A stretch of DNA of 64,000 nucleotides from Lineus longissimus (taxonomy: Eukaryota > Nemertea > Pilidiophora > Heteronemertea > Lineidae). Under the pieces are notes generated by a model. It ran no database searches, was not told the origin of the DNA, and was given only the letters and a program-made list of their open reading frames with translations. The position numbers and the translations under genes are program-made. Within the stretch, counting starts at the first letter, position 1. Each line of letters begins with the position of its first letter. Of the stretch, positions 21,138 through 60,385 are shown one piece after another. Location of the stretch: the NCBI RefSeq assembly GCF_910592395.1, contig NC_088313.1, positions 2,544,501 through 2,608,500 of the forward strand, in the 5' to 3' direction.

Positions 21138-21193
<56 letters not shown>

Positions 21194-21230
21194 CGTCGTC
21201 GTCGCCCGTCGTCCTCCTCATCATCATCAC
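21138..21230. repeat. (TCG)18 microsatellite with degenerate flank
   Basis: Eighteen perfect TCG units (21138-21191) are followed by interrupted GTC/CCC and CAT units. All three plus frames and the minus frame read through as homopolymers (Arg, Val, Ser), so the overlapping open frames here are artefacts of the repeat. Confidence 0.95.
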
Positions 21231-30431: not shown

Positions 30432-30444
30432 ATGGCATCTTTAG
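30432..30444 (+). CDS. Cytokine-like gene, coding exon 1 (13 nt)
   Basis: ATG GCA TCT TTA G, then donor GTAAGT. The context ACACAATGG is good for initiation. It encodes MASL and the first base of a Gly codon, giving a phase 1 intron of 493 bases. Confidence 0.65.
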
Positions 30445-33400
30445 GTAAGTTAACCTCTTAACCGTATCTGTGATTTCTTGTAGCATCCGCGTCATCTTGC
30501 TGTCACTGTCAATGTTCATTATCGTCCCGTCTACTTTCTTGTCACCATCATCTCATATTTACCAAAAGGACAATACGACATTCAGTTCATGTTTGAATGG
30601 GCTTTACACGTGGTTTCGTCTGTCAGCCCCATAACCATGAGTGTACAACTCAGTGAAATAGCTTTTTATTGACATTTCCTAATTTTGATATTTGAATCTG
30701 AGGATGACAGTTAAGAAAACGTGGATGTCCTAGCATTAATTTTAGTTGTGAGAGTTATTTTCATTGATGATTAGGCCCGCTTGTTTTGGCAACCTCTTGA
30801 TTTGTATGTGAACTTGGTTACCTTCCTTATTGAGCAATCTGATAAGGTTTGGAAGCGATTAACACTTCAGACGGATTGGAATTTACAATCGTCTTACCAC
30901 GGAAGCCCATTAATGAAACTATTTCCTTAAATTTTAGGTTCAATTGCCACCCTTTCCGGCCTTGTTGCATTCCTAGCCCTTCTTACAAACACAGTAGCGC
31001 GACCACTATCAAAATCACAGCATCTCGAGTTTCCGGAAACAGCCGAGGAGATCACGAAGATAACCGAAGGCAAACGCAAGGATACGCTACTCAATAAAGT
31101 CATCCTCACGGCGCTAAGGGATAGAAGAGACGGGACACAAGCGCAACATTTGACAAAAGATTATGTGCGTCGACGGTTGGATGAGACGCTTATTCACGTG
31201 CGGGATTTAATATATAGAGCAAACGACACGTATAATCTGCTGGTGAGTACCATGACATGTTATTTGAAAAAGCAGTCAAGAGGCATCAATGGCCGACAGG
31301 CGAGGAATGCAGCATTTTATGCTGCAGCAGACGCTTGTAAAGTCTGCTTGCGTCGTCTGCCAAACGCGTTGCGCGCTTGATTCTAGACCAAGTCCACCCT
31401 CAGCGATTATTTGCCCCTCTTCGCGGATATCTAATCTTATTACATGCTTCTTACGACACTTTCCCACGAATTGGCCACTTCGCATCATTGTTGGGCAATA
31501 TCATACTATAAGTTTCGTACAATAACATTGGAATAGCATCACATTCTAATATTCGATATTGAATGAAATACTAAAAAGATGAGCATTTACTGCAATTACA
31601 GTCTGTGCCTATTGTCCCTGGCACTGTCAGATGTCAATTCCGCAAGTCTGGACCCTCGCAGACGACATTGGCGCAAAATGGCGCTCACCTAAAAGTAGTA
31701 TGACCATCTGATCGCTCTGTGATCGACTTGAACCTTCGCAATCGAGATATTTCTTAGGTAATATCGAGAATTGATTGTCTGCTGGGCTGCCCTTTGAATA
31801 TGGTGTCAGACTTTAACCCTTTGAGATGAAGTCACTGGATGTCACGATAATGTTCGAATGGAACACTCTTCAATTGATAACCCATTACCAGCTCACAGTT
31901 GAGAGCAGAAAGTATGTTTTTCTGCGTTTCTTGCAAGCGTACTCAAAACGGTATCCAATCGTACGACCGTTTCGCGTGAGGGAATAGATTGCCGGTGACA
32001 GAAATCCGCTCCGACATTTTGTAAGTGGTAGAGCTGAGAGGTGTAAGGAGTGCATCCGATGGAACCCCTTTATCTGAAGCCAATACCGATAGTCCTCGCA
32101 ATCCAGTTCTTGGGCCTAATCCACTGTCACACTATTTAATTCTTAAACAAACACTTAATAAGTACTTCCGGTATATACCCGTCAAATCTTTGACGTCATC
32201 AAAATCAAGACTGTTATCCAACATGTCGCAAAATTACGAGCTATATAATACGGTTTTGATTGGCATTAAACGCTAACATAATTCTGGTGGATTGGCTTAC
32301 AAAGTGAACTACGAATCCAAACTTCCAAATTGCTAAAACAAATTTAACTTGTCGGGGTTATAAGATCTTATTTCAAAACCGAGTCAAAGTTTGTTTGACG
32401 ATTAGGTTGTCCATCCTTTGAGAGTTTCGCTGCAAGTACGGTCAAAACACTGCCGGACGCCCCGACCCCAAACTCGCCCCAGTGCCGAAATTTAAATTTA
32501 AATTCAAATTCAATGTTTTTTCTCTTTGTATGGTGCGCGTAATATCAACTGTGGTACTTTCTGGAATTCTTGTCTGGTGATATCCAAATATAGAGAATAC
32601 TTTAAACATGGTCGCGCGTCGACCTTCCCTAATCTTTCGGTTTTTCCTAAATCTTGCGCAAGGCTTACCGCAGGGGATCAGGGTGATGCAAGGTCATCAC
32701 GGTCGTCTGTCTGAGCAAATCTTCGACCAGACGTTGAAAAACAGCTAATCGTCATCGTGTCCTTCATATTCGTAAAGTGGTGTAAGAAACGAATTTAAAA
32801 ACTACTGATAAACCAAAGTGGAACGAACGCTAAATAAGCATTTCCGACTCTAAAATGTAATAGAGAAGATAATATTGAAAGACATGTTAATGATTTTATA
32901 CCTTCTGATAATTTCGGTTGAATCTTTTTAAGTATAATTGAACAATTTCTCGTCTTTGGTGACATGCATGTCCCTAGGATCTGAAGCACCGACATTCAAT
33001 ATTCAGAGCACACCCGTACATCAATGTGTAAAAACCGACATTGTGTGTAGCACATACATCCCAAACGTTTTATTGACCTACACGAGTTGAATAGGCATGC
33101 ATTAATAACTATTTAGATATTAATTCACCTAACCACATAAATAGCAGAGGAATGCACGACAGAAAATTGGCTCCATCTCAACTCGGTCAGTCTAGGTTTC
33201 CAAGTTGCTTGACACTCACGTGGCACACTGTTTTCCTCTGGTAACTATAAAACACTGAAATTTGAAGCCAACCCAACATGGATGAGTGACTCAATTGGTT
33301 AAATATAGGCCCTGTATTCAAATTATCGGATCATATATACACCAGAACATTTTGTTAATTTTCGTCTAATGAATAAAGCAGTGGAACTTGAAGAATTTCG

Positions 33401-36400
33401 CGTGCATTCCTTTTGAATAAAAGATTTGACGTGCGACTGATCGGTCAATGGGTCTGTCTGGTGATATTCGCGCATAGCACTGCAGTTTACATGGAAGACA
33501 TGTAGAATGTACACACGGCGGGGGCATTGAACAGGGAATATCACTGATATACTCCGGGGCCCTGGGGCATTTGCAAAATGGCCAAATATTGTAGTTTCCC
33601 ACGTAGTTATATAATTGGAAGGGTTATCACTCATGCTTAGAACTAAATATCATCATAATCTATATTTTGCAACGTATTCGAAACTTAGCTAGAAACCAAA
33701 CGATTAATTTTCTCGATTGTTTGTGCCACGAGATGTATACCAAGAACGGACGGACTCTCGTACTCGGCCGAATGCCAACCATCATTTCATCAAACCAAGT
33801 CATGTGCCCCGAATACATTTTGGGTATTTATGCAGTGCTGTTTATCAGTATATCTGATATTGATATATATTGACGTGTGAAAGAAAGTTAATTATACCTA
33901 AAATGTCATCGCAAAACCAATATGTCACAAGGACGTTCTAATTACATAAGTTCCGGATGCAATTCGAATATGATCTGTGTTGATTTCTCAAAGTCAAAAA
34001 TCAGTGCCAAATGGACCACTTCCGGACATGCCGACTTTTTTGTGCAGCGGTTTTTTCATGGTGTCTTCTGATATACCACGGCCTTTTATTTACAGAGGGC
34101 ACGGGGCCTATCAAAACCGTAGGCCTATGACATTTATAATCAGCAACAGGATGCAATGGTTGATGTTATCGAGGGGTGAGGCCAATCGGGCAAACCGGGA
34201 GGCAAGACGTTTACTCCAAAGTTGTACAAGTTACCATCTTCTGTCCTGTAACCTGCGATGATGTTTGCATTATGTTGGTGATCATGATACATGTTGGGCG
34301 CCTAATGAGGAAATGCTGACTCAGCACTGACCAAGGGTATCAGCTTGCCGTTCAGTGACTCAATCCCGTTAACCGATAAGTGGTCGATTGCACCTTGTGG
34401 CTACTAGAACCAATATTGAACACCACCGTGGCCACACAAGCCATGCAATTGCTATTTACCCACACCTCCCCCATGCCCCGCATTTATAGCAATGGCCGTG
34501 GATTCTTTGAAACATGGTCGAAAACGCCATCTACTGGAAACCACTTAAGGCCAGAGGTCAAAAAGTATGCTGTATATTTTCTCTCTCTGGTTGTGTACAT
34601 TTAATTGCTGTAACATAAAAATACTCGGAAGTGTCCATTAATGGTCACTATCGATTCACGCGAGTGTTCATTTACACCGTCCCTAATGAATATGCTTCTG
34701 TTTAACAAATCACCAAGGGATACGCGCACCATTTTGCTTCAAGGTCAAATGAGGGCAATGGTGAATGAAGCGGTGCAAAAAGTACATTCAGAAGTGCAAA
34801 AGTATCATTCGATTACATGAGCGTGCATGACGTAAGGGCGTTGATCGTATAATATACACTGATCATAAGTCATGCCACGGATTATGAAAATCGTCCATTC
34901 TGTGTTTTAGTTGGTAACCGATATTTGTAACTCGAAGAACATTTTCATTTGGGATCGCATGAAATATGGGAGCGCAGTAGCCGTATCGCGGGCAATGAAA
35001 ACCATGAACCACCTGGTCTGGCGATGCGCACTTAGTCTACACTTCGCCAAAGACGTACATTGTAGACATATTTTCTAAAAAAAAATCGGCACTGCTATTG
35101 GCAACCTTCTACTATAAATGATGAAGAAGTCGACAGGTTTTTGAAACTATACATGTATATATTTTTCTGATCAACAGAATGTCGAGGGACGAAAAAACTG
35201 TTCACTCAGAATTCGGCACTTTATAGCTTAGAGGTGATGTGACCCGTGGCCAGGCCTAGGGTGGTTTACATTGACCGCTGCACTGATATGATGACAGCGC
35301 TTCGGGAACAATCTTTGATTCCGCATCCAATAAATAGTTTTCCCAAAAGAGAGATGTTTATGATGAGAGCAAGCGAAAGACCCAATCGGGTCATGAAGCC
35401 ATTACTGCTATTCTATATGAGAAATGCCGCGAAATGAAATCTCCAACCAGCAGGGCTATTAACCGCTCCACCCACGCACAACATGGATGTGGTGTCTCTC
35501 GTGACCGAGCAAATACGGCTCATAACTTAAACAGTGACGGGTGGAGGCATTGCTTGTCAAACCAAGGCAACACCTCGCGAGGTGCCGGTAATGAAAATGG
35601 AACATCGTTCGTCATCTTGTTCAAGTCTTGGTGATTCGAATGTACCCCGTGCCCTTTTCCTTTCTCAATTCATCATCTTCTTCAGTCTTGACCCGTCCGT
35701 GATGTGGCCGGAATGGGCTGGTGGGGCAGCTATCATTCCATTCATCTCGGCCATTGATGTGCTTTTAATGTTCGTTAATTACATTGCATAAATCGACAGA
35801 CAGGTTGTTCGGACACGCGCATTACAGTCCACCCGAGGTTGTCAGTTTGATGTGTTCAATTAAACCCATCAAGGCTGCCATAAGAACAGGGTTATGTGAA
35901 CTTTATAATGTTGCGATTGAAGCCATGCGCTTCCGGTTTGAAGCAACACTAATCCGTGTGAAACTGCGCTATCGAACCCTATTAGCTATAAGAGTACGGG
36001 CGAACTTCATAGATTAGTCAAGTCTGCACCCAAAGGGATGGGTGAAAGCTTTTGGAATAATGCTATCTTATTAAGACCCGCATGGTGTCTTCTCAAGATA
36101 ACATTCAAACTCATTTCAGTATTGCCCTCGAAATACTATACTAAACTAACCTTGCTAAATAGCGAAGTAATTTTAGAATCGATTTGCCTGTACGTCCACG
36201 GCCAACGAGCTGACTTTCTTCAGCAACCACTAGCCAGTATCCATTGTGTTCCATGCCTGTTAACGGTGCTGTCGCACGTGGACGTAAGTTTGAAAAAATG
36301 GTCATGGATAAACATGGCCTTTCAAGTTGGTGCTTTGTTTTATTATGAATAATACTAATGTATATAGCCACTTCTTTTTTGCTTTTCAGTGTTACCAGAA

Positions 36401-39400
36401 ACACGCTTTACTACCACACAACGATCCACGATTGAGTACTTGTCGAGGTTTCACTCAGGCGAGCTTGGAGATACGGGGAGCTTTAAACATTCCTGATCAC
36501 GCTGGATATGAATTCCAACTTGACTCAGATTCAAGAGACTTATTAAAGGTAAGCCACTCCCCAAATGAATGAGAGTAGAGATAATCCGATGATAAAGATT
36601 TGCCAAAAAAAGTAAAAAAGGCAGTGATCTGTATGTAAAAACGAATGGAACGTGACAAAAACGCAAAGGGTTACGGAAAATTGGTAAGCAGATTCATGTA
36701 CATGTACATGTATTCCGACACCATTCACTGCTCACCGCTCTAATATGTTCCTATATCGGGTGAATATCTCACATTGATATCTTTAAGATAACTTTGTCAA
36801 AAGATTTTTATAAACTCATTAAATTTAAAAGGATTGAAAGGTGGCACGCTTTGGTATGGGCAAGCGCGTGCTGAGCATAAGGGACGTGCTTGGTTGAACT
36901 GGAATGCACTCTTTTCGACATAAGTGGTGTCACTAGCATAAAGCAAGGCTTGTGTCATCGATATGGGTCGATGAATGTCTTGATATAACGGTCGACATTA
37001 AATTCCACCAAGTATTGAGGCACCTTGATCGAAATATCAAAGAATAGCATAGAAATGAAAAATGAATGTCAACTGTCAAATAATGTGCCCAGATCCATAT
37101 ATCATATTGGAAAGTTTGGATGAAATGCATCACCTCTGCCTAGCACGCATTTTGCTATATGGTTCTGAAGGACGCCTATACCTTTGGATATAGCACTTTT
37201 CGCTAACATTTTTGTATCATACAGATGCACTACATGTTTACCATGAATACTTTTGACCAAGCATGTATGACATTAGGTCGACCATCCATTATGAAGTTCG
37301 AGACTAAAAAACTCACGACAAGTATAAACAAACTCACACCTACGATAGTAGATTGCACTGGTATAATGTTCTAACTTATCAAAACCTTCCAAAACAGACA
37401 TTATTCACATCCGAGATAAATTTATAGTCATGTAAATAAAAGAAATGTCAGATTAATGTTCGCCATCAATATCTAAATGATGAAATGAGAAATCAGACAC
37501 AATCGGACATAAACAAAGTGTGTAGAACAATGCATTGCTCCACTTATACGGCGAGTGCAAGGGTGACATCTTGGTCATGATATTAGATGAATATGTTAGA
37601 AATCAATTTCTGCTTAGACTTTGTGCCTTGTATCCATGTTTATTATTTGGAAACATTGACTGCCCATATATCTGCAGAACAAGTAATTTACGATTCTGCC
37701 TGGACCTTCACCGATGGCATTTCCTCAATCGGTGCAACTAATTATGCAAGTAATATTTTATGTATTGTTCTTATAATGTACAATTAAATGTAGGTGCATG
37801 AGTCCTCCTTGGAGCATGATAAACGGTCTTAAAATAAAACAATGATTAAGCATTACAACCTCAAAGAAAAAGGCAAGCCCAATTAAACTCACAATGACAT
37901 ACTTGATGGGGGTTGTACGCCATTCGTGCGCACTGTATACATTGGTTGCACTGAAAAATGGAAATGCAAAATGCCGTATAGTAGTGCAGTTATTCTGCTT
38001 GCAAATTTTAAATTTCCAACAGCAATTTCAAATTACTATCTGGTTCATATGGTAAATCTTCTCAATCCCAATGGACACATTGATTTTCGTTAGGTTAGCT
38101 TATCATTGTTCTATAGGCTTACAAACGGTAGAAATCGCAATCATAAGCTAATTTCGTGCATACACCTGCTTTGAAGGCTAAACGATAGACATACCAGTAT
38201 GATTGGAACATCCCGGGCGAGCTTCAAGCATAAAAAAACGCCAAGCGGTTCAGTTATTCTTTGCACTCACCTGGCCTGCACCCAGAACATGTACAGAACC
38301 ATGGAGGTATTAATAATACCTCCATGACAGAACTAAGTGAACCATTCTTTCTTCAAAGCTTTCCACAGCTGGCTACAGTTTTTGTACGGTTAAAGATAAC
38401 AGCCACTCCTTTGTGGGCCCGGCTCCACTAAAGAGTAGAAATCAGTCATCTTTTATCTGCCTCGGTAACGGAGGGTATCTATCTCTTCTGCCTGTCTTTA
38501 CACGCTTTGAAGTTGGATACTTTTTCACAGACAGTATAGCTCATACTGTATTGCAAGTACATGTGTATTGCCAGAATGTTATGTTTTTACGTGTCTATTT
38601 ATATTGGAGTGTTTCAAGCTCAAATGCAACAACTTGAATATTAAGCCAAGCAATTTGGTCTTCACCCTTTCGATTGTTCACTGTTAACATTTCAATTTAA
38701 AGTGTATTGCAAGTGTCATTAAACAACTCGAGTCACGCAACGTACATCGTATGTGTATAATCACTGTTATATTACTACTGTCTCGGTCGAAGGCGTAACT
38801 TGCTGTGCTCAGACACCAAGACATCTCAAGATAGCAATTCCAATAGTTAAAAACAAGAGCTCCTTGATAGTTAAGCAATATACATTTTAGCATTAAGTGC
38901 AAAGCAAAGTTTATTGTAAATAACGAAGGGAAAACTCGTAAATAAATATATCAATTTTATGGCAGGCCTATATTTCGATCATAATCAGTGTAATGGTAAT
39001 CAAATTGTGAAAAAAACCATTAAGAAGTGCAGAGATCATAATAAAGGCTATTATGATAGTTCTTTTTTTAGGTTTACGCTCGTGGGAATATATGCTTTTG
39101 AGCTAAAAACATTTTTTTCAAAAAGAATGTCATACAATTACGCTTAGCCTGATGAAAGTGCTATCATGAATAAATAACCATGTACAACTTGCCAAACACA
39201 CAAGTGACTTAACTTAATTATGTTTTCCCATTTTCTCTTTCCAGACCGTTTATCATAAATCTTGGGAAATAACGAGAGAATATCAATTCGTGGTTTCAAA
39301 TATGACCACGTTAGAAGAGGACTATCTATGTAATGGACATAGTTGTGAAATAAAATGTACGGACAGGATACGTAATTCAGATCCTCATAGTTTCTTGTGC

Positions 39401-41104
39401 CAATTACGGACTTTAGAATCAAGAATTATTAGTTTTTCAAAAATATTAGTGCGTTCGGTAAGTTGCTTTTTCATCCCAATTTTTTAAATGGCTTGGTACT
39501 TGGCGACGCCATGTGACTGTTGACCTCGTTTGGCCTGACTTATATTAAGTTAAATACATGTAGGTGAAAAAGGCTGCAAGAAGATCACCTTTCTGTACTC
39601 TGAAACTGGCCTCGAGATATTGCTCGTCGACAGGCAACATTCCCCGCTCTCAGAAGCTCTTTCCCTGGTCAGGCAGTCATTGGACGTGTGCATCAAATTC
39701 CTGTTGCAGTTTAGAAATAGTACAATTACGTAGGCGTAGGAGACATATGTCGAGTCACGTACCTATCTCATATAGCCAACTAATATGCAATAAAGTGTCA
39801 TTAACACCCACAATTGCAGCATTTTCTGTCATTCATATTAAACAGTTCTATACTTTCCTGTATAGACCATAGACCAGCATCATCGTGCTTGGTACAGGCG
39901 AGATTTAGATGAATACTCGATTTGAACACTGTCAACCCATCCACTTGAGGGCACTTGCATGCAGGCCAACTGCATTATTCAACTCTAACGAGCACTTTTC
40001 ACCAAAAGCGCAACAAGTATAGATATTTCCAGGGGGTAGATGGCTTTTTGGTAGGGCCATACTGAGCTTCCAACGGTATTGCCCCCGTAGCCACCGCCCT
40101 TGACGCTCGTTACCTGGAAGCTGAGCATTGTCAATACATTGAGGGCCAAGGTGGTAGGGGTGGGAAAAAACCCTTCCTTGTCCCCCCCTCAGAAAATTGG
40201 CCAAAATCTTCATGAGGAGCACGTTTCTTGGAGACACGGAGGTGAATCTGCCCCCCCCCTTTGCTACTGCCCTGAAGTCATGTGCAAAAAAGTGTCACCT
40301 CGTTTACTTTTGAAACCTGGAAATGCTAAGAATACTTATTAGACGATGATGCATTGATGAAAGGTGAACAATAGTGTATTTCAACCAAGCACCGCCTGAG
40401 AGCACGTTTTAAGCGCCAGATCGACGCTCGACATATAAAATTTTCAAGATTTGTTCCTTTCTTTCGGAAGTGTCACAAGTACATACGTTCTTTGAATTCT
40501 GCATGCGTTATTTCTTACGAATTTGTCTAGAGTGTCCGACCATTGAAACGTGTTACATTTTTTCTACTTCATAATTCGATGGCCAAGTTTACGGTAATAA
40601 ACCAGATATATATATATATCGATGAACAGCTAATATAAGGTTCTAGGAAATCATGAAAAAAACCAATGCTGTACGAACTTCTCTTTAAGTTCGAGAGACG
40701 TATAGTATTGCCTAGTGTACTCATCAGGGCATTACTCGAAAGAATATTATAATGCCAAAGAGCAATATTTCCATTAAAAGTGTGCCATCGTTTTCAGTGT
40801 AGGAGCCGCGGTAGATACGAGTGATGCCTCCGTCAGGTAGCCTTCTAATGCATAGTGGAATAATGCATTACCTGATACACCAGGAGAACCAATCTTTTTT
40901 CTCAATAGCTATCTTTTTTTCTATTTTCAGATGAACATGCTTCACTTGTCGCCAAAATCGAATAGGAGGGTTTTTATCACGGGACGGCCTGAGGTGTCGG
41001 AACATACCCGACTAATGTACAATTTCGCAGCGTCATACCAGCTTTATCGACAGGCGGAGGAGATCGAATATGCAATTCAACTCACGCGAAATACCGTCTC
41101 GTAA
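30432..41104 (+). CDS. Candidate secreted four-helix (class I type) cytokine, five exons, 287 aa
   Basis: Seen: joining 30432-30444, 30938-31242, 36390-36548, 39245-39457 and 40931-41104 gives an uninterrupted 287-residue frame. All introns are GT-AG, in phases 1, 0, 0 and 0. Residues 1-25 form a signal peptide (hydrophobic core LSGLVAFLALL, cleavage predicted after TVA). A furin-type RDRR lies at 65-68. Long amphipathic helices are predicted at about 76-110, 160-186, 207-235 and 251-283. Six cysteines occur in the mature chain (107, 124, 188, 193, 197, 211). N-glycosylation sequons are at 100 and 178. Known: EPO, GH, G-CSF and IL-6-type genes have five exons, 1-0-0-0 phases and a tiny first coding exon. 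Inferred: a secreted ligand for a JAK/STAT-type receptor. Alternatives are another helical hormone or an unrelated lineage-specific secreted protein. The gene model is more certain than the family. Confidence 0.7.
30938..31242 (+). CDS. Cytokine-like gene, exon 2 (signal peptide and helix A)
   Basis: The acceptor ATTTTAG ends at 30937 and the donor GTGAGT starts at 31243. The 305 nt complete the signal peptide, then encode a charged pre-region with RDRR (65-68) and helix A (about 76-106, KDYVRRRLDE...YRANDTYNLL). It ends in phase 0, and the next intron is 5,147 bases. Confidence 0.7.
31243..36389 (+). other. Intron 2 of the cytokine-like gene
   Basis: The largest intron. It has an A/T-rich stretch near 32490-32515 and several short frames (for example 35784-36017 and 36038-36327) without matching splice sites in phase. 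I looked for an additional in-phase exon and found none that I could support. No repeat element was recognised. Confidence 0.6.
36390..36548 (+). CDS. Cytokine-like gene, exon 3 (A-B loop)
   Basis: The acceptor CTTTTCAG ends at 36389 and the donor GTAAGC starts at 36549. The 53 codons start with Cys107 and hold Cys124. They are rich in polar residues, Gly and Pro, consistent with the long loop after helix A. In and out phases are both 0. Confidence 0.7.
36549..39244 (+). other. Intron 3 of the cytokine-like gene
   Basis: It contains a perfect 27-bp palindrome at 38300-38326 (13-bp arms around one A). No additional exon or repeat family was recognised. Confidence 0.6.
38300..38326. repeat. 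Perfect 13+1+13 palindrome
   Basis: CATGGAGGTATTA, then A, then the exact reverse complement. It lies inside intron 3 of the cytokine-like gene. No function is evident; a dimeric factor site or short foldback is possible. Confidence 0.9.
39245..39457 (+). CDS. Cytokine-like gene, exon 4 (helices B and C)
   Basis: The acceptor CTTTCCAG ends at 39244 and the donor GTAAGT starts at 39458. The 71 codons comprise helix B (about 160-186), a short cysteine-rich turn (Cys188, 193, 197) with sequon N178-M-T just before it, then the start of helix C with Cys211. In and out phases are both 0. Confidence 0.7.
39458..40930 (+). other. Intron 4 of the cytokine-like gene
   Basis: It contains C/G homopolymer runs around 40175 and 40251-40259 and a short (AT)n tract at about 40607-40619. 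Minor open frames on both strands are unsupported. Confidence 0.55.
40931..41104 (+). CDS. Cytokine-like gene, exon 5 (helix D and stop)
   Basis: The acceptor CTATTTTCAG ends at 40930. The 57 codons and TAA (41102-41104) finish helix C, then encode a basic turn (SPKSNRR) and a long amphipathic helix D at about 251-283 (SEHTRLMYNF...EEIEYAIQLT). The exon has no cysteines. I did not find a canonical AATAAA in the next kilobase, so the 3' end of the transcript is undefined. Confidence 0.68.
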   Translation: MNMLHLSPKSNRRVFITGRPEVSEHTRLMYNFAASYQLYRQAEEIEYAIQLTRNTVS

Positions 41105-48235: not shown

Positions 48236-49835
48236 CTGTGACACAGCTTCGCTCAGACACTACCATCAGATAAAGAATGCGCTGTGTCACTGAAATCAGA
48301 TCAGAACAGTGCTGTGACACTGCCATTAGCTGAGGACAGTGCAGTGAAATTGTCGTCAGAATGAGAACAGCGCTGCGAAATTGTCATCAGAATGAGGACA
48401 CTGCTGTGACTCTGCCATCAGACGAGGACAGCGCGTGACACTACCATCAGATAAAGACAGCGCTCTGACACTATCATCAGATGAAGATAGCGCTCTGACA
48501 TAGCCATTCGTTTAGGGCAGGATTTTGTCTGATCCTGCCATCAGATAAAGACGGCGCTCTGGCACTACCATCCGATGAGGACAGTGCTGTGACGCTGCCA
48601 TTAGCTGAGGTACGAAATTGTCATCAGAATGAGGACTGCGCTGTGACACTGCCATCAGGTGAGGACAGCTTTGTGACACTCCTATCAGATAAAGACAGCG
48701 CTCTGGCACTGCCATCCGAAGAGGACAGCGCTGTGACGGTGCCATTAGCTGAGGAGAGTGGTGCGAAATTGTCATCAGACGAGGACAGCACCGTGACACT
48801 GCCATCCATTGACTGCGAAACTGTCATCGGAATGAGGACTGCGCACTCTCAAACTGTCATCAGATGAGGAGAACATTGTGCACTGCCCTTAGCTAAAGAC
48901 AGTGCTGCGCTGTGACCCTGGCATTAGAATATGGGGATCGGAGCTCACTGTGACACTGCCGGAATTAAGCTGGGGACAACGCTGCGAAACTGTCATCAAA
49001 ATGAGGACTGCGCTTTGACACTGCCCTCTGATGAGGACAGCGCTTGTGACAGTGCCATCAGAATGAGGACTAGGCTGTGACATTGGCATCAGCTGAGGAT
49101 AGCACTGACACTGCCATCAGCTGAGGACAGCACTGACACTGTTATCAAAATGAGGACAGCGCTTTTACACTGCCATCAGATGAGGACAGCGCTGTGACGC
49201 TGCTGCCATCAGAATGAGGACCGGGCTGTGACACTGCCATCAGCTGATGATAGCACTGACACTGCCATCTACTGAGGACAGCGCTGCGAAACTGTTATCA
49301 AATGAGGACGGCGCTTTGACACTGCCATCAGATGAGGACAGCACTGTTACTGTCCCGGTTGAAGAGTGCTGCGATTACTACCTTTGATTAGGACAGCGTT
49401 GTGATACTGCATCTGATGGGGACAACAATGTTATACTGCCCCAGATGAGGACAAGGGCTGCGGGTGTGATATACCATCAGGCATGGACAGCGCTTTTATG
49501 ACACTGCCATTAAATGAGGACAGCTCTCTACTGTTTATGTTGAGGAGTGCTGTGACACTACCTCCGATTGGGACAGCGGTGTACTGCCTCAGATGGGGAC
49601 ACGGCAATACTGTCTCTGATGGGGACAAGGCAATACTGTCTCTGATGGGGACAAGGCAATACTGTCTCTGATGGGGACAAGGCAATACTGTCTCTGATGG
49701 GGACAAGGCAATACTGTCTCTGATGGGGACGAGGCAATACTGTCTCTGATGGGGACAGAGCGGATGTGATACTACTGCTGCAGCTGACGGGGACAACACA
49801 TTGACGGCACTCCGATAAGGACAATACTGGGCGAA
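48236..49835. repeat. Degenerate 30-bp minisatellite array
   Basis: Dozens of diverged copies of a unit close to GACAGCGCTGTGACACTGCC plus ATCAGATGAG, with unit lengths of about 24-32. Because 30 is a multiple of three, one frame (48589-48867) reads as acidic decapeptides of the form EDSAVTLPSD. The frame breaks repeatedly across the array, so a protein is unlikely. The array includes a homogeneous 26-bp block (49603-49758). Confidence 0.9.
49603..49758. repeat. Six near-identical 26-bp tandem units
   Basis: The unit GGCAATACTGTCTCTGATGG plus GGACAA is repeated six times with one or two differences. It is clearly derived from the surrounding 30-bp unit by a 4-bp shortening and then homogenised, so it is the youngest part of the array. 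The unit length gives an apparent 26-residue protein repeat in all frames on the minus strand, an artefact. Confidence 0.95.
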
Positions 49836-55640: not shown

Positions 55641-56626
55641 CTGCAAACAAACAAGGATTAAAATCTTCTTTACAATTTTAAACCGTATGATGATCAATAA
55701 TATTTTCAAAACTAAGTTTAGTTCAGCTCATTACAAATTATCTCATGTAAATATAAAATCACTCGAGTCTCTAACACACCTCCCAATGCACACTTTCTAG
55801 CGTCAGTAATGATATGACTTTGTCCATTCGTTGAAAATAAACAGTTCAAAGGAACTCCCTGTGGGTTACTTACTCTATTCTTTTGGTTATGTTCCTCGAT
55901 ATTGAGTCCCTGCATCATACCAGCAAGATCTGCCCCCTCCCTCGGTGGTACCTGACGAGGCAATGGCTGCGAGTTGTTATTGGGCACCCGACTGGGAGCT
56001 GCGAGAATATTAGGCCCAGGAGCATTTTGCTGAGGTGGAATGAAGACGCTGTGGCTATCCTGACCTTGTCTTTGGGGCTGACCTCCTGCATTTCCTGGTG
56101 CAGCACCTTGGCCTTGCTCCTCCTGCAACATCTCCTCAAAGCAACTCTCGATAAACTGCTCCTCCCAGAACTCCAATTCGCACTGCAGAGAAAAGGGACA
56201 TAACTCATACTGTACAAGTACAGATTTATACCAGGGTGTGAAATGTACACCAAGTATTGGAAGTTTACAGGCCAATTGTCATTATCACAATCCCTACTCT
56301 ACCCTTTCCACGATCAACCTTAGTCTAATCTTTTCTGGCTGGTTAAGTGACAAATAGGTTGGTTCAAGGCCTTTTGATTAGATATTTACATGTAGTTTGA
56401 ATCTTAAATCTTGTCAACAATTGAACTCCCGAGACTAAAGAGTGAGTAGAGCTCCTACCTGCTTATCAAATTCCTCTATATTTTCTTCGCCCATCCATAA
56501 GAATTCGGCAAACTCATTACCCTCGCCATGTCCCTGAGGCTGATGATAAGGGTGGTTGTTGTTATAATGGCTACCTCCATCGCCTCTACCATCAGGTTTA
56601 TGGCCGTAGTCAACAGGTCCTTTCAT
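55560..56626 (-). CDS. PAIP2: Poly(A)-binding-protein-interacting protein 2 (PAIP2), three coding exons, 185 aa
   Basis: Seen: joining 56626-56459, 56182-55874 and 55640-55560 gives 185 residues with GT-AG introns in phase 0. FAEFLWM at 39-45 and the acidic helix EFWEEQFIESCFEEMLQEE at 60-78 match the PAM1 region of PAIP2. The last exon holds SRLNPDAPVFVP (163-174), a textbook PAM2 motif with the key Leu165, Ala169, Phe172 and Pro174. Known: PAIP2 binds cytoplasmic PABP through PAM1 (RRMs) and PAM2 (MLLE domain), displaces it from poly(A) and eIF4G, and represses translation. Odd: it is longer than the human protein (about 127 aa), with an N-terminal Gly/His/Asn-rich segment (residues 12-36) and a Gln/Pro/Asn-rich linker (80-140). 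The ATG is chosen because a 3' splice site (CACTAGCAG) lies about 20 bases upstream, implying a non-coding first exon. Confidence 0.93.
55874..56182 (-). CDS. PAIP2: PAIP2 coding exon 2
   Basis: The acceptor CTCTGCAG lies just upstream (56190-56183) and the donor GTAAGT starts at 55873. The 103 codons start inside the PAM1 acidic helix and run through a low-complexity Gln/Pro/Asn linker to NIEEHNQKNR. Confidence 0.9.
56459..56626 (-). CDS. PAIP2: PAIP2 coding exon 1
   Basis: 56 codons from ATG 56626 to CAG, then donor GTAGGA. They encode a Gly/His/Asn-rich N terminus and the first conserved block (EFAEFLWM...EEFDKQ). The intron to exon 2 is 276 bases. Confidence 0.9.
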
Positions 56627-58579: not shown

Positions 58580-58954
58580 ATTATTGCGTGCTTATACTAA
58601 ACATAATCCAAACCTCGAGCTCAATGTCAGGGGCTCAGGTTAATCCTTAAAGCAACTAACCTATGAAACGAGAGGCACCGTCCAGAAAAAAATCCAGCAA
58701 AGTTATTTAGTACGTCAATGAATTTTATATGTTGAATGTAAATCACTCGCCCAAAAAACGCATGAAAATCAGGATATAGGCTAAATTGTAAACCAATACT
58801 TTGTCGACGGATAATGGGCTTGCTAATCTGCGTCGTCCTTTAATGAGGTTGCCACGAAGAAGCCAGCCTCGTTTGCAGAAAATATGTCGGAGAAAATGTA
58901 CAGGGGTTCTACACAAACGCCTGCGATAACGACCAAGGGCACAAGGTTGTAAAC

Positions 58955-60385
58955 ATGGCGGTCTCGGGAACCGATGGCGATGAAGGCAGGCTCCTAAATT
59001 CCAAATACAATGGAAGCATGAAGAAGGTCGTGTTTGCAACGTTTGTAGCGTGTACAGCACCGTTTTCATTCGGTTATGCCATAGGGTACACTTCCCCTGC
59101 CATTCCCGAGATGGAATGGAAGGGAGTGATGAGCGCAAATAACTTGTCGTGGTTTTCAAGCCTGTTGACACTTGGTGGGATGATGGGCTCTCTCCTAGCT
59201 GGAGTTGCCATGGAACTTATTGGCAGAAAACGAACTTTGATGATCACAACACTACCCTTAGTTCTTGGCTGGACATTGATAGCTGTAGGTTTCAATACTT
59301 TTACGTTTTTGCTTGGTAGAATTTTGACTGGAATCGCGATCGGATTGGTGAGTGCTGCGACTCCAGTTTACATTGCGGAGATATCAAGTAAGGAGCACAG
59401 AGGCTTGTTGGGATGCTGTAACCAGTTGTCTATCACTTTCGGAATCCTGATGGTTTATTACTTGGGTATAACTGGAAGTTGGCAGTTTTTGGCCTGGGCT
59501 GGCGTTGTCGTACCTCTTCTGTCAAACTGCATGATGGCAACTATACCGGAGACACCAAGATGGTTGCTCATGAAAGGACGTCGAGCAGAAGCAAAACAAT
59601 CCGTCCTTTGGCTCCGAGGTCCATATATTGATGCTGAAAATGAACTCCGGGACATAGAAGAAAATATGGAGAGTGGGGAAAAGGCATCTCTTTCGGACTT
59701 CACCAAGCCAGAACTTTATGAACCGTTGAAAGTTGCTGTGTGTGTCATGGCTCTGCAGCAACTGACTGGTATCAATGCTATCATGTTCTATGCTGTAACA
59801 ATCCTACAACAAGCTGGTTTATTCACCATGTTTGGCAACACAGGAGCAGTAGTCATAGGTGGCATTCAAGTTGTTGCAACATTGCTCAGCTGTTTCATGA
59901 TGGATCGTGCAGGAAGACGTCGACTTCTTCTATTCGCAGCCTCTGGAATGATGATGAGTTGCATCGTATTTGGATGGTATTACAATGGAATGGCCACAAG
60001 GAATGTCAACACAACCAAAATGATGGAAATTCTGCCTGTTATTTGCCTAATGGTCTATATCATTTCATTTTCATTTGGTTGGGGGCCAGTGCCGATGTTA
60101 CTGTCATCAGAAATCTTTCCGCAGAAGGCCAGAGGTTTGGCCAGTTCAATATCAGTTCTCGTGAACTGGGGCTTTGCATTTCTTGTCACCAAGACATTTA
60201 GTCCTCTTAGTGGGCTAATTGGCTATCATGGCATATTCTGGCTCTTTGCTGCCTTTTGTTTTGTTGGAATACTTTTTGTGTATAAGTTTGTACCTGAGAC
60301 TAAAGGAAAATCTCTTGAAGACATTGAACTCTACTTCCTAGGAAAATCCCTCCATACTTCCAATTCCAGAGAGAGACAAGTATAA
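58955..60385 (+). CDS. Class III SLC2 (GLUT8/GLUT6/Tret1-like) facilitated sugar transporter, intronless, 476 aa
   Basis: A complete major-facilitator sugar transporter with 12 predicted membrane helices. Family signatures in order: GRK 90-92, GR 121-122, VYIAEIS 138-144, PETPRW 198-203, QQLTGIN 268-274, DRAGRR 317-322, GWGPVP 375-380, SEIFP 385-389 and PETKGKS 447-453. The first extracellular loop is short and the only likely sequon (N352-T-T) is in loop 9, both class III traits. DEGRLL at 9-14 is a DxxxLL acidic dileucine sorting signal, as in GLUT8, suggesting residence in endosomes or lysosomes. Known: such carriers move glucose or trehalose down the gradient. The start ATG has a good context (AACATGGCG) and overlaps a YY1-like ATGGCGG. 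There are no introns, so a retrocopy that kept function is possible. I cannot separate GLUT6, GLUT8 and Tret1 orthology. Confidence 0.95.
   Translation: MAVSGTDGDEGRLLNSKYNGSMKKVVFATFVACTAPFSFGYAIGYTSPAIPEMEWKGVMSANNLSWFSSLLTLGGMMGSLLAGVAMELIGRKRTLMITTLPLVLGWTLIAVGFNTFTFLLGRILTGIAIGLVSAATPVYIAEISSKEHRGLLGCCNQLSITFGILMVYYLGITGSWQFLAWAGVVVPLLSNCMMATIPETPRWLLMKGRRAEAKQSVLWLRGPYIDAENELRDIEENMESGEKASLSDFTKPELYEPLKVAVCVMALQQLTGINAIMFYAVTILQQAGLFTMFGNTGAVVIGGIQVVATLLSCFMMDRAGRRRLLLFAASGMMMSCIVFGWYYNGMATRNVNTTKMMEILPVICLMVYIISFSFGWGPVPMLLSSEIFPQKARGLASSISVLVNWGFAFLVTKTFSPLSGLIGYHGIFWLFAAFCFVGILFVYKFVPETKGKSLEDIELYFLGKSLHTSNSRERQV

Follow-up and report, generated by a model that had tools for sequence, protein, structure and literature searches.

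A five-exon gene of the ribbon worm Lineus longissimus encodes a secreted protein that may be a long-chain class I helical cytokine

The stretch of DNA analysed here, a window of 64,000 nucleotides from contig NC_088313.1 of the ribbon worm Lineus longissimus, carries the gene LOC135489555, whose product is a candidate class I helical cytokine. Joining and translating its five exons gives a single frame of 287 residues that ends in a TAA stop, with GT/AG borders at all four introns and coding-exon intron phases of 1, 0, 0 and 0 for introns 1 to 4. A protein search returned the NCBI entry 'uncharacterized protein LOC135489555 [Lineus longissimus]', which equals the predicted 287 residues at 100% identity over 100% of the length. 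Residues 4-21 are strongly hydrophobic (mean 0.69) and are followed by a pro-segment; the end of the signal peptide was set by eye from hydrophobicity and sequence. Six cysteines (107, 124, 188, 193, 197 and 211) and two N-glycosylation sequons (N100 and N178) are present. A first-pass annotation, made from the DNA letters, had proposed the same five-exon reading, which the GT/AG joins and the identical NCBI protein bear out. Its counts of cysteines and sequons hold in the spliced 287-residue protein, and the mature start that it implied, residue 69, comes directly after an RxRR|D motif that the paralogue keeps.

The gene is real and is kept as a protein, since this paralogue shares its introns, cysteines, a sequon and the cleavage motif. 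Whole-genome searches took in 391.1 Mb on 30 contigs, and comparison of the protein with the whole genome matched an exon on contig C12 to exon 4 of LOC135489555 (E 4.9e-5, 31%). Spliced by the same exon logic, this second locus (2601458-2606034) yields 309 residues, letter for letter those of NCBI LOC135497114 isoform X2, a label which implies a second isoform. BLASTP aligns the two proteins with 29% identity over 269 residues (E 6e-34), and the three intron positions that can be compared, those of introns 2, 3 and 4, fall at identical alignment columns (118, 173 and 253). Over 284 aligned codons, identity at codon positions 1, 2 and 3 is 0.43, 0.57 and 0.30, so that the third position is the least conserved. 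Each protein has six cysteines, with C107, C124, C188 and C211 at equivalent places; the remaining two stand four residues apart in both, and the alignment pairs one of them, C197. The sequon N178, RxRR|D and the motifs DxxLxTCxG, NIPxH and SExTRxxYNFA are likewise common to the pair. A splice acceptor lies two bases 5' of the paralogue's own ATG in exon 2, compatible with phase 1, and the four candidates for a first exon were poor, none of which was accepted.

As far as found, LOC135489555 and LOC135497114 would make up a family of two. When LOC135497114 was compared with the genome at E<=10, it matched itself and exon 4 of LOC135489555 and no others; a match on contig C2 (E 0.265 to LOC135489555) was dropped for its one in-frame stop and, by eye, its lack of the conserved motifs. 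Queries to 5.77 billion proteins with the whole of LOC135489555 (964 candidates), its region 72-180 (22) and a two-sequence profile (6066) returned no third member at E<=10 in a word-based search that requires shared 5-residue words, and more distant relatives could escape it. In Pfam no toxin family matched LOC135489555 or the pair, NCBIfam gave zero matches, and a PDB search with the single sequence had no match at E<=10. Two sets of marginal matches were judged chance: DUF7844 in Pfam (E 0.13), which is below the cut-off, and ribosomal protein S13 in the PDB profile search (21 rows, E 0.043-2.3), which covers profile positions 13-90, from the signal peptide through the pro-segment and into the first residues beyond it.

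Long-chain class I cytokine genes begin with a few-codon exon that ends in phase 1, followed by helix A, the AB loop, helices B and C together, and helix D, with exons 2-5 bounded by phase-0 introns. The coding exons of human EPO measure 13, 146, 87, 180 and 156 nucleotides, those of GH1 10, 161, 120, 165 and 198, and those of IL6 19, 191, 114, 147 and 168, which compute to phases 1-0-0-0 and to 193, 217 and 212 residues. With five coding exons, phases 1-0-0-0 and a first exon of 13 nucleotides, the LOC135489555 gene has the layout of EPO, GH and IL-6. The stronger part of this evidence is the agreement of the phases with the ends of helices A and C as they are modelled.

Helices A, C and D are long in both AlphaFold models of the protein, which are of low confidence (predicted local distance difference test, pLDDT, 39.9 for the single-sequence model; pLDDT 42.0 and predicted template modelling score, pTM, 0.45 for the two-sequence model). 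Measured against the exon on which a class I gene would carry them, exon 2 carries 34 of the 41 residues predicted for helix A, exon 4 carries 25 of the 28 for helix C and exon 5 all 33 for helix D; these three of the four modelled helices fit a cytokine-like exon layout. Foldseek found 210 matches for the two-sequence model, and the best 50 of these consist of 30 axonemal helices, 10 class I cytokine chains and 10 others. The class I chains represent four proteins (PRL, G-CSF, GH and IL-11), and the top non-axonemal row is prolactin. In VIA-align, 11 of 50 rows are G-CSF, CLCF1, CNTF, IL-11 or placental lactogen, and their alignments span 96-130 residues. The single-sequence model was used as a contrast and not as evidence for another fold; of its 129 Foldseek matches, none reached E<=0.001. 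The four-helix cytokine fold of LOC135489555 is supported, not proven.

The first-pass annotation had predicted four amphipathic helices, of which A, C and D recur as long helices in both models while the length of B differs between them. The mean 18-residue moment over residues 26-287 was reached by 5 of 500 shuffles. As delimited, helices A and D are not amphipathic at 100 degrees and B and C are borderline: out of 5000 shuffles, 1073 reached the moment of A, 242 that of B, 259 that of C and 4292 that of D.

We put at roughly 0.65 the probability that LOC135489555 is a long-chain class I four-helix cytokine whose pro-protein is cut at RDRR|D. The same class had been proposed at first pass, and the proposal draws support from the exon and phase layout and from the class I rows that Foldseek returns for the two-sequence model; it is weakened by the low-confidence model, the want of a significant fold match, the inconsistent helix B and the want of a sequence match to a cytokine family. 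Several results weigh against a class I cytokine. None of the 210 Foldseek matches is significant, with target template modelling (TM) scores of at most 0.44, and the best 50 of the 129 rows for the single-sequence model are mostly axonemal helices and include no cytokine. Helix B covers residues 152-177 in the single-sequence model, where exon 4 carries 18 of the 26. The two-sequence model shortens it to 152-162, with 8 of 11 on exon 3 and 3 of 11 on exon 4. The Pfam profiles for IL-6/G-CSF, LIF/OSM, CNTF, EPO/TPO, GH/PRL and interferon (IFN) did not match, nor did the Pfam and PDB searches find sequence similarity to any cytokine family; because no family profile matched, the protein is not filed in any named one. 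The phase string alone is modest to weak evidence as well, since many genes have a phase-1 intron close to the signal peptide, and phase-0 introns are common in the rest of a gene.

In the two-sequence model, which is the better one, helix B lies largely on exon 3; this and the low Foldseek TM lower confidence in a class I cytokine and raise it in a secreted helix bundle with a non-cytokine job, such as that of an exchangeable apolipoprotein or another carrier, whose cytokine-like exon layout would then be coincidental. The weak phase string leaves room for such coincidence, low-confidence helical models match many bundles, and the apolipoprotein structure 1aep does stand among the best 50 of the 210 Foldseek rows (E 1.2). 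It is, however, one apolipoprotein against 10 cytokine chains in those rows; the conserved cysteines, sequon and RxRR|D suit a processed extracellular ligand, and introns 1, 2 and 4 lie at the positions usual in class I genes, so that we regard a carrier as unlikely. A class II helical cytokine of the interferon or IL-10 type, like the interferon-like protein of the oyster, would also be secreted, helical and cysteine-bearing, and the oyster CgIFNLP is described as having a class II-like structure (PMC9756803). Fish type I interferon genes, which are class II, have four phase-0 introns (PMC4929537), whereas intron 1 of LOC135489555 is in phase 1, within the signal peptide. No class II cytokine occurs among the best 50 of the 210 Foldseek rows for the two-sequence model or among the 50 VIA-align rows, where the cytokine rows are class I, and this alternative is improbable.

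Nemerteans produce helical, disulphide-rich toxins with pro-segments, and a processed, secreted product of the mucus or proboscis that acts as a toxin or in defence could share the dibasic-motif pro-segment, the six cysteines and the lack of any relative outside this worm in the word-based sequence search. It is nonetheless a highly improbable identity for a protein that matches no Pfam toxin, was found in the genome in no more than two diverged copies and has long predicted helices in place of a small disulphide core. That the exons are small and spread over 10.7 kb, and that their joins are known here from the sequence and the NCBI model alone, might suggest a splice-site artefact with no gene behind it; the identical NCBI model, the decay of identity at the third codon position and the paralogue with equal intron positions speak against it, and the paralogue rules it out. 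The positions of the features of both genes are collected in Table 1.

Table 1. Features of LOC135489555 (positions within the 64,000-nucleotide window) and exons of its paralogue LOC135497114 (positions on contig C12)
Feature	Position	Strand	Basis
Coding exon 1: 13 nt, MASL and first base of codon 5; phase-1 intron follows	30432..30444	+	NCBI protein identical
Coding exon 2: remainder of signal peptide, pro-segment with RDRR|D, most of helix A; phase-0 end	30938..31242	+	
Coding exon 3: AB loop (Cys107, Cys124; conserved DxxLxTCxG, NIPxH), helix B residues 152-159; phase 0 at both ends	36390..36548	+	
Coding exon 4: remainder of helix B, BC region with four cysteines (Cys188, 193, 197, 211), larger part of helix C; phase-0 borders	39245..39457	+	
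Coding exon 5, up to the TAA stop: CD loop, conserved SExTRxxYNFA, helix D	40931..41104	+	
Predicted signal peptide, about residues 1-25, split by intron 1	30432..30999	+	hydrophobicity, by eye
Furin-type cleavage motif R65-D66-R67-R68 before D69; RQRR|D in paralogue	31117..31128	+	sequence
Sequon N100-D-T; no counterpart in paralogue	31222..31230	+	sequence, alignment
Sequon N178-M-T; NVT in paralogue	39299..39307	+	sequence, alignment
Predicted helix A, residues 78-111 in one model and 73-113 in the other; exon-2 part	31141..31242	+	low-confidence models
Predicted helix B, residues 152-177 or 152-162; across intron 3	36525..39298	+	models disagree
Predicted helix C, residues 206-233; across intron 4	39383..40939	+	low-confidence models
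Predicted helix D, residues 254-286; wholly on exon 5	41000..41098	+	low-confidence models
Paralogue exons	2601458-2601805 (from ATG), 2603770-2603934, 2605113-2605352, 2605858-2606034		splice reading

As a class I cytokine, LOC135489555 would be directed to secretion by its signal peptide as a pre-pro-protein, and a furin-type protease would cut the pro-protein at RDRR|D to give a mature domain of 219 residues. This domain would fold into four helices, A-B-C-D, of which A and B would be joined by a long loop holding Cys107 and Cys124, and B and C by a cysteine-rich region. The mature ligand could then bind a cytokine receptor of the domeless, gp130 or CRLF3 kind, and the bound receptor would signal through JAK and the STAT of the genome; cleavage, receptor binding and signalling role are here inferred. 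Profile searches of the genome for receptors and JAK were run exon by exon. STAT_bind scored above cut-off in three adjoining pieces on contig C13 (4561810-4562665), with 0 of 14 controls matched, and by this profile match a STAT is present in Lineus longissimus. Neither IL6Ra-bind (PF09240) nor Jak1_Phl (PF17887) matched the genome, and no control matched either profile, so that absence is undemonstrated; EpoR_lig-bind (PF09067) had no genome match, while 2 of 14 controls matched it, none above cut-off. A degenerate DNA pattern for WSXWS was uninformative: it matched 1923 times forward and 1777 times in reverse, and its control 1591 and 1430 times.

With the vertebrate long-chain class I cytokines (EPO, GH/PRL, IL-6, G-CSF, IL-11, CLCF1/CNTF) the Lineus protein shares secretion, predicted long helices A, C and D, a long AB loop and the five-exon layout with phases 1-0-0-0, and the first non-axonemal rows in the best 50 of the 210 from Foldseek with the two-sequence model include PRL, G-CSF, GH and IL-11. 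It differs from them in having no detectable sequence similarity, in its furin-type pro-segment and cysteine-rich BC region, in a longer mature form (219 residues) and an uncertain helix B, and in coming from a nemertean. The GH-like hormone (GHl) of amphioxus is also a type I helical cytokine of an invertebrate with low sequence identity to vertebrate members, although amphioxus is a chordate and GHl, at 208 residues, was assigned by phylogeny and modelling; the review (PMC9010856) reports that neither acorn worms nor sea squirts yielded such a gene, and it never uses the word 'protostome'. The Drosophila Unpaired proteins (Upd1-3), which PMC13203501 describes as ligands of the IL-6R-like receptor Domeless that lead to JAK-STAT, are protostome ligands as well, but of an arthropod, and are likened here by description only. 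The oyster CgIFNLP is another lophotrochozoan cytokine-like protein with a helical-cytokine-like structure; it is, however, described as interferon-like and class II-like, with an IFN domain (PMC9756803), whereas the Lineus protein matches no Pfam IFN family. Among the titles and abstract openings listed by searches of open-licence PMC papers, none reports a nemertean class I cytokine, and a search on nemertean cytokine receptors and JAK listed no paper.

The exon layout shared with vertebrate hormones suggests that the class I signalling family may predate the split of worms and vertebrates. The 2026 survey PMC13203501 found IL6 in vertebrates alone. It followed JAK and STAT back to sponges, and the IL6R-type receptor as far as molluscs, in which JAK, STAT and receptor first co-exist with no IL6 ligand known, and it suggests alternative ligands; CRLF3 is reported as an ancient eumetazoan receptor whose ligand is unknown (PMC6797617). 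Perhaps a five-exon class I gene with phases 1-0-0-0 was inherited from the bilaterian ancestor, the Lineus pair being its lophotrochozoan form and a ligand of domeless/IL6R-like or CRLF3 receptors, which have no known ligand in this branch, and the intron layout would find more such genes where sequence search fails; this remains tentative, with odds a little short of even. If true, a ribbon-worm class I cytokine would be a candidate ligand for both the mollusc IL6R-type receptor and the CRLF3 puzzles, the origin of the ligand family would shift from chordates to the bilaterian ancestor, and exon phases combined with helices would provide a search rule independent of sequence. What is new is a class I-like ligand candidate in an animal branch where the searches described above showed none.

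Elsewhere in the window, a (TCG)n run of about 25 copies (21138-21213) opens poly-Arg and poly-Val frames. A 186-residue open frame on the reverse strand (55718-56278), rich in Q, P and G and with no Pfam match, may be an exon of an unrecognised gene. Two minisatellites, one of about 36 copies of a diverged 30-bp unit (48256-49341) and one of 6.8 copies of a 26-bp unit at 96% (49582-49757), contain open frames that seem to arise from the repetition itself. Downstream of the cytokine-like gene, an unbroken forward-strand frame of 512 codons (58847-60385) contains a full sugar transporter domain (Sugar_tr, E 4.1e-97).

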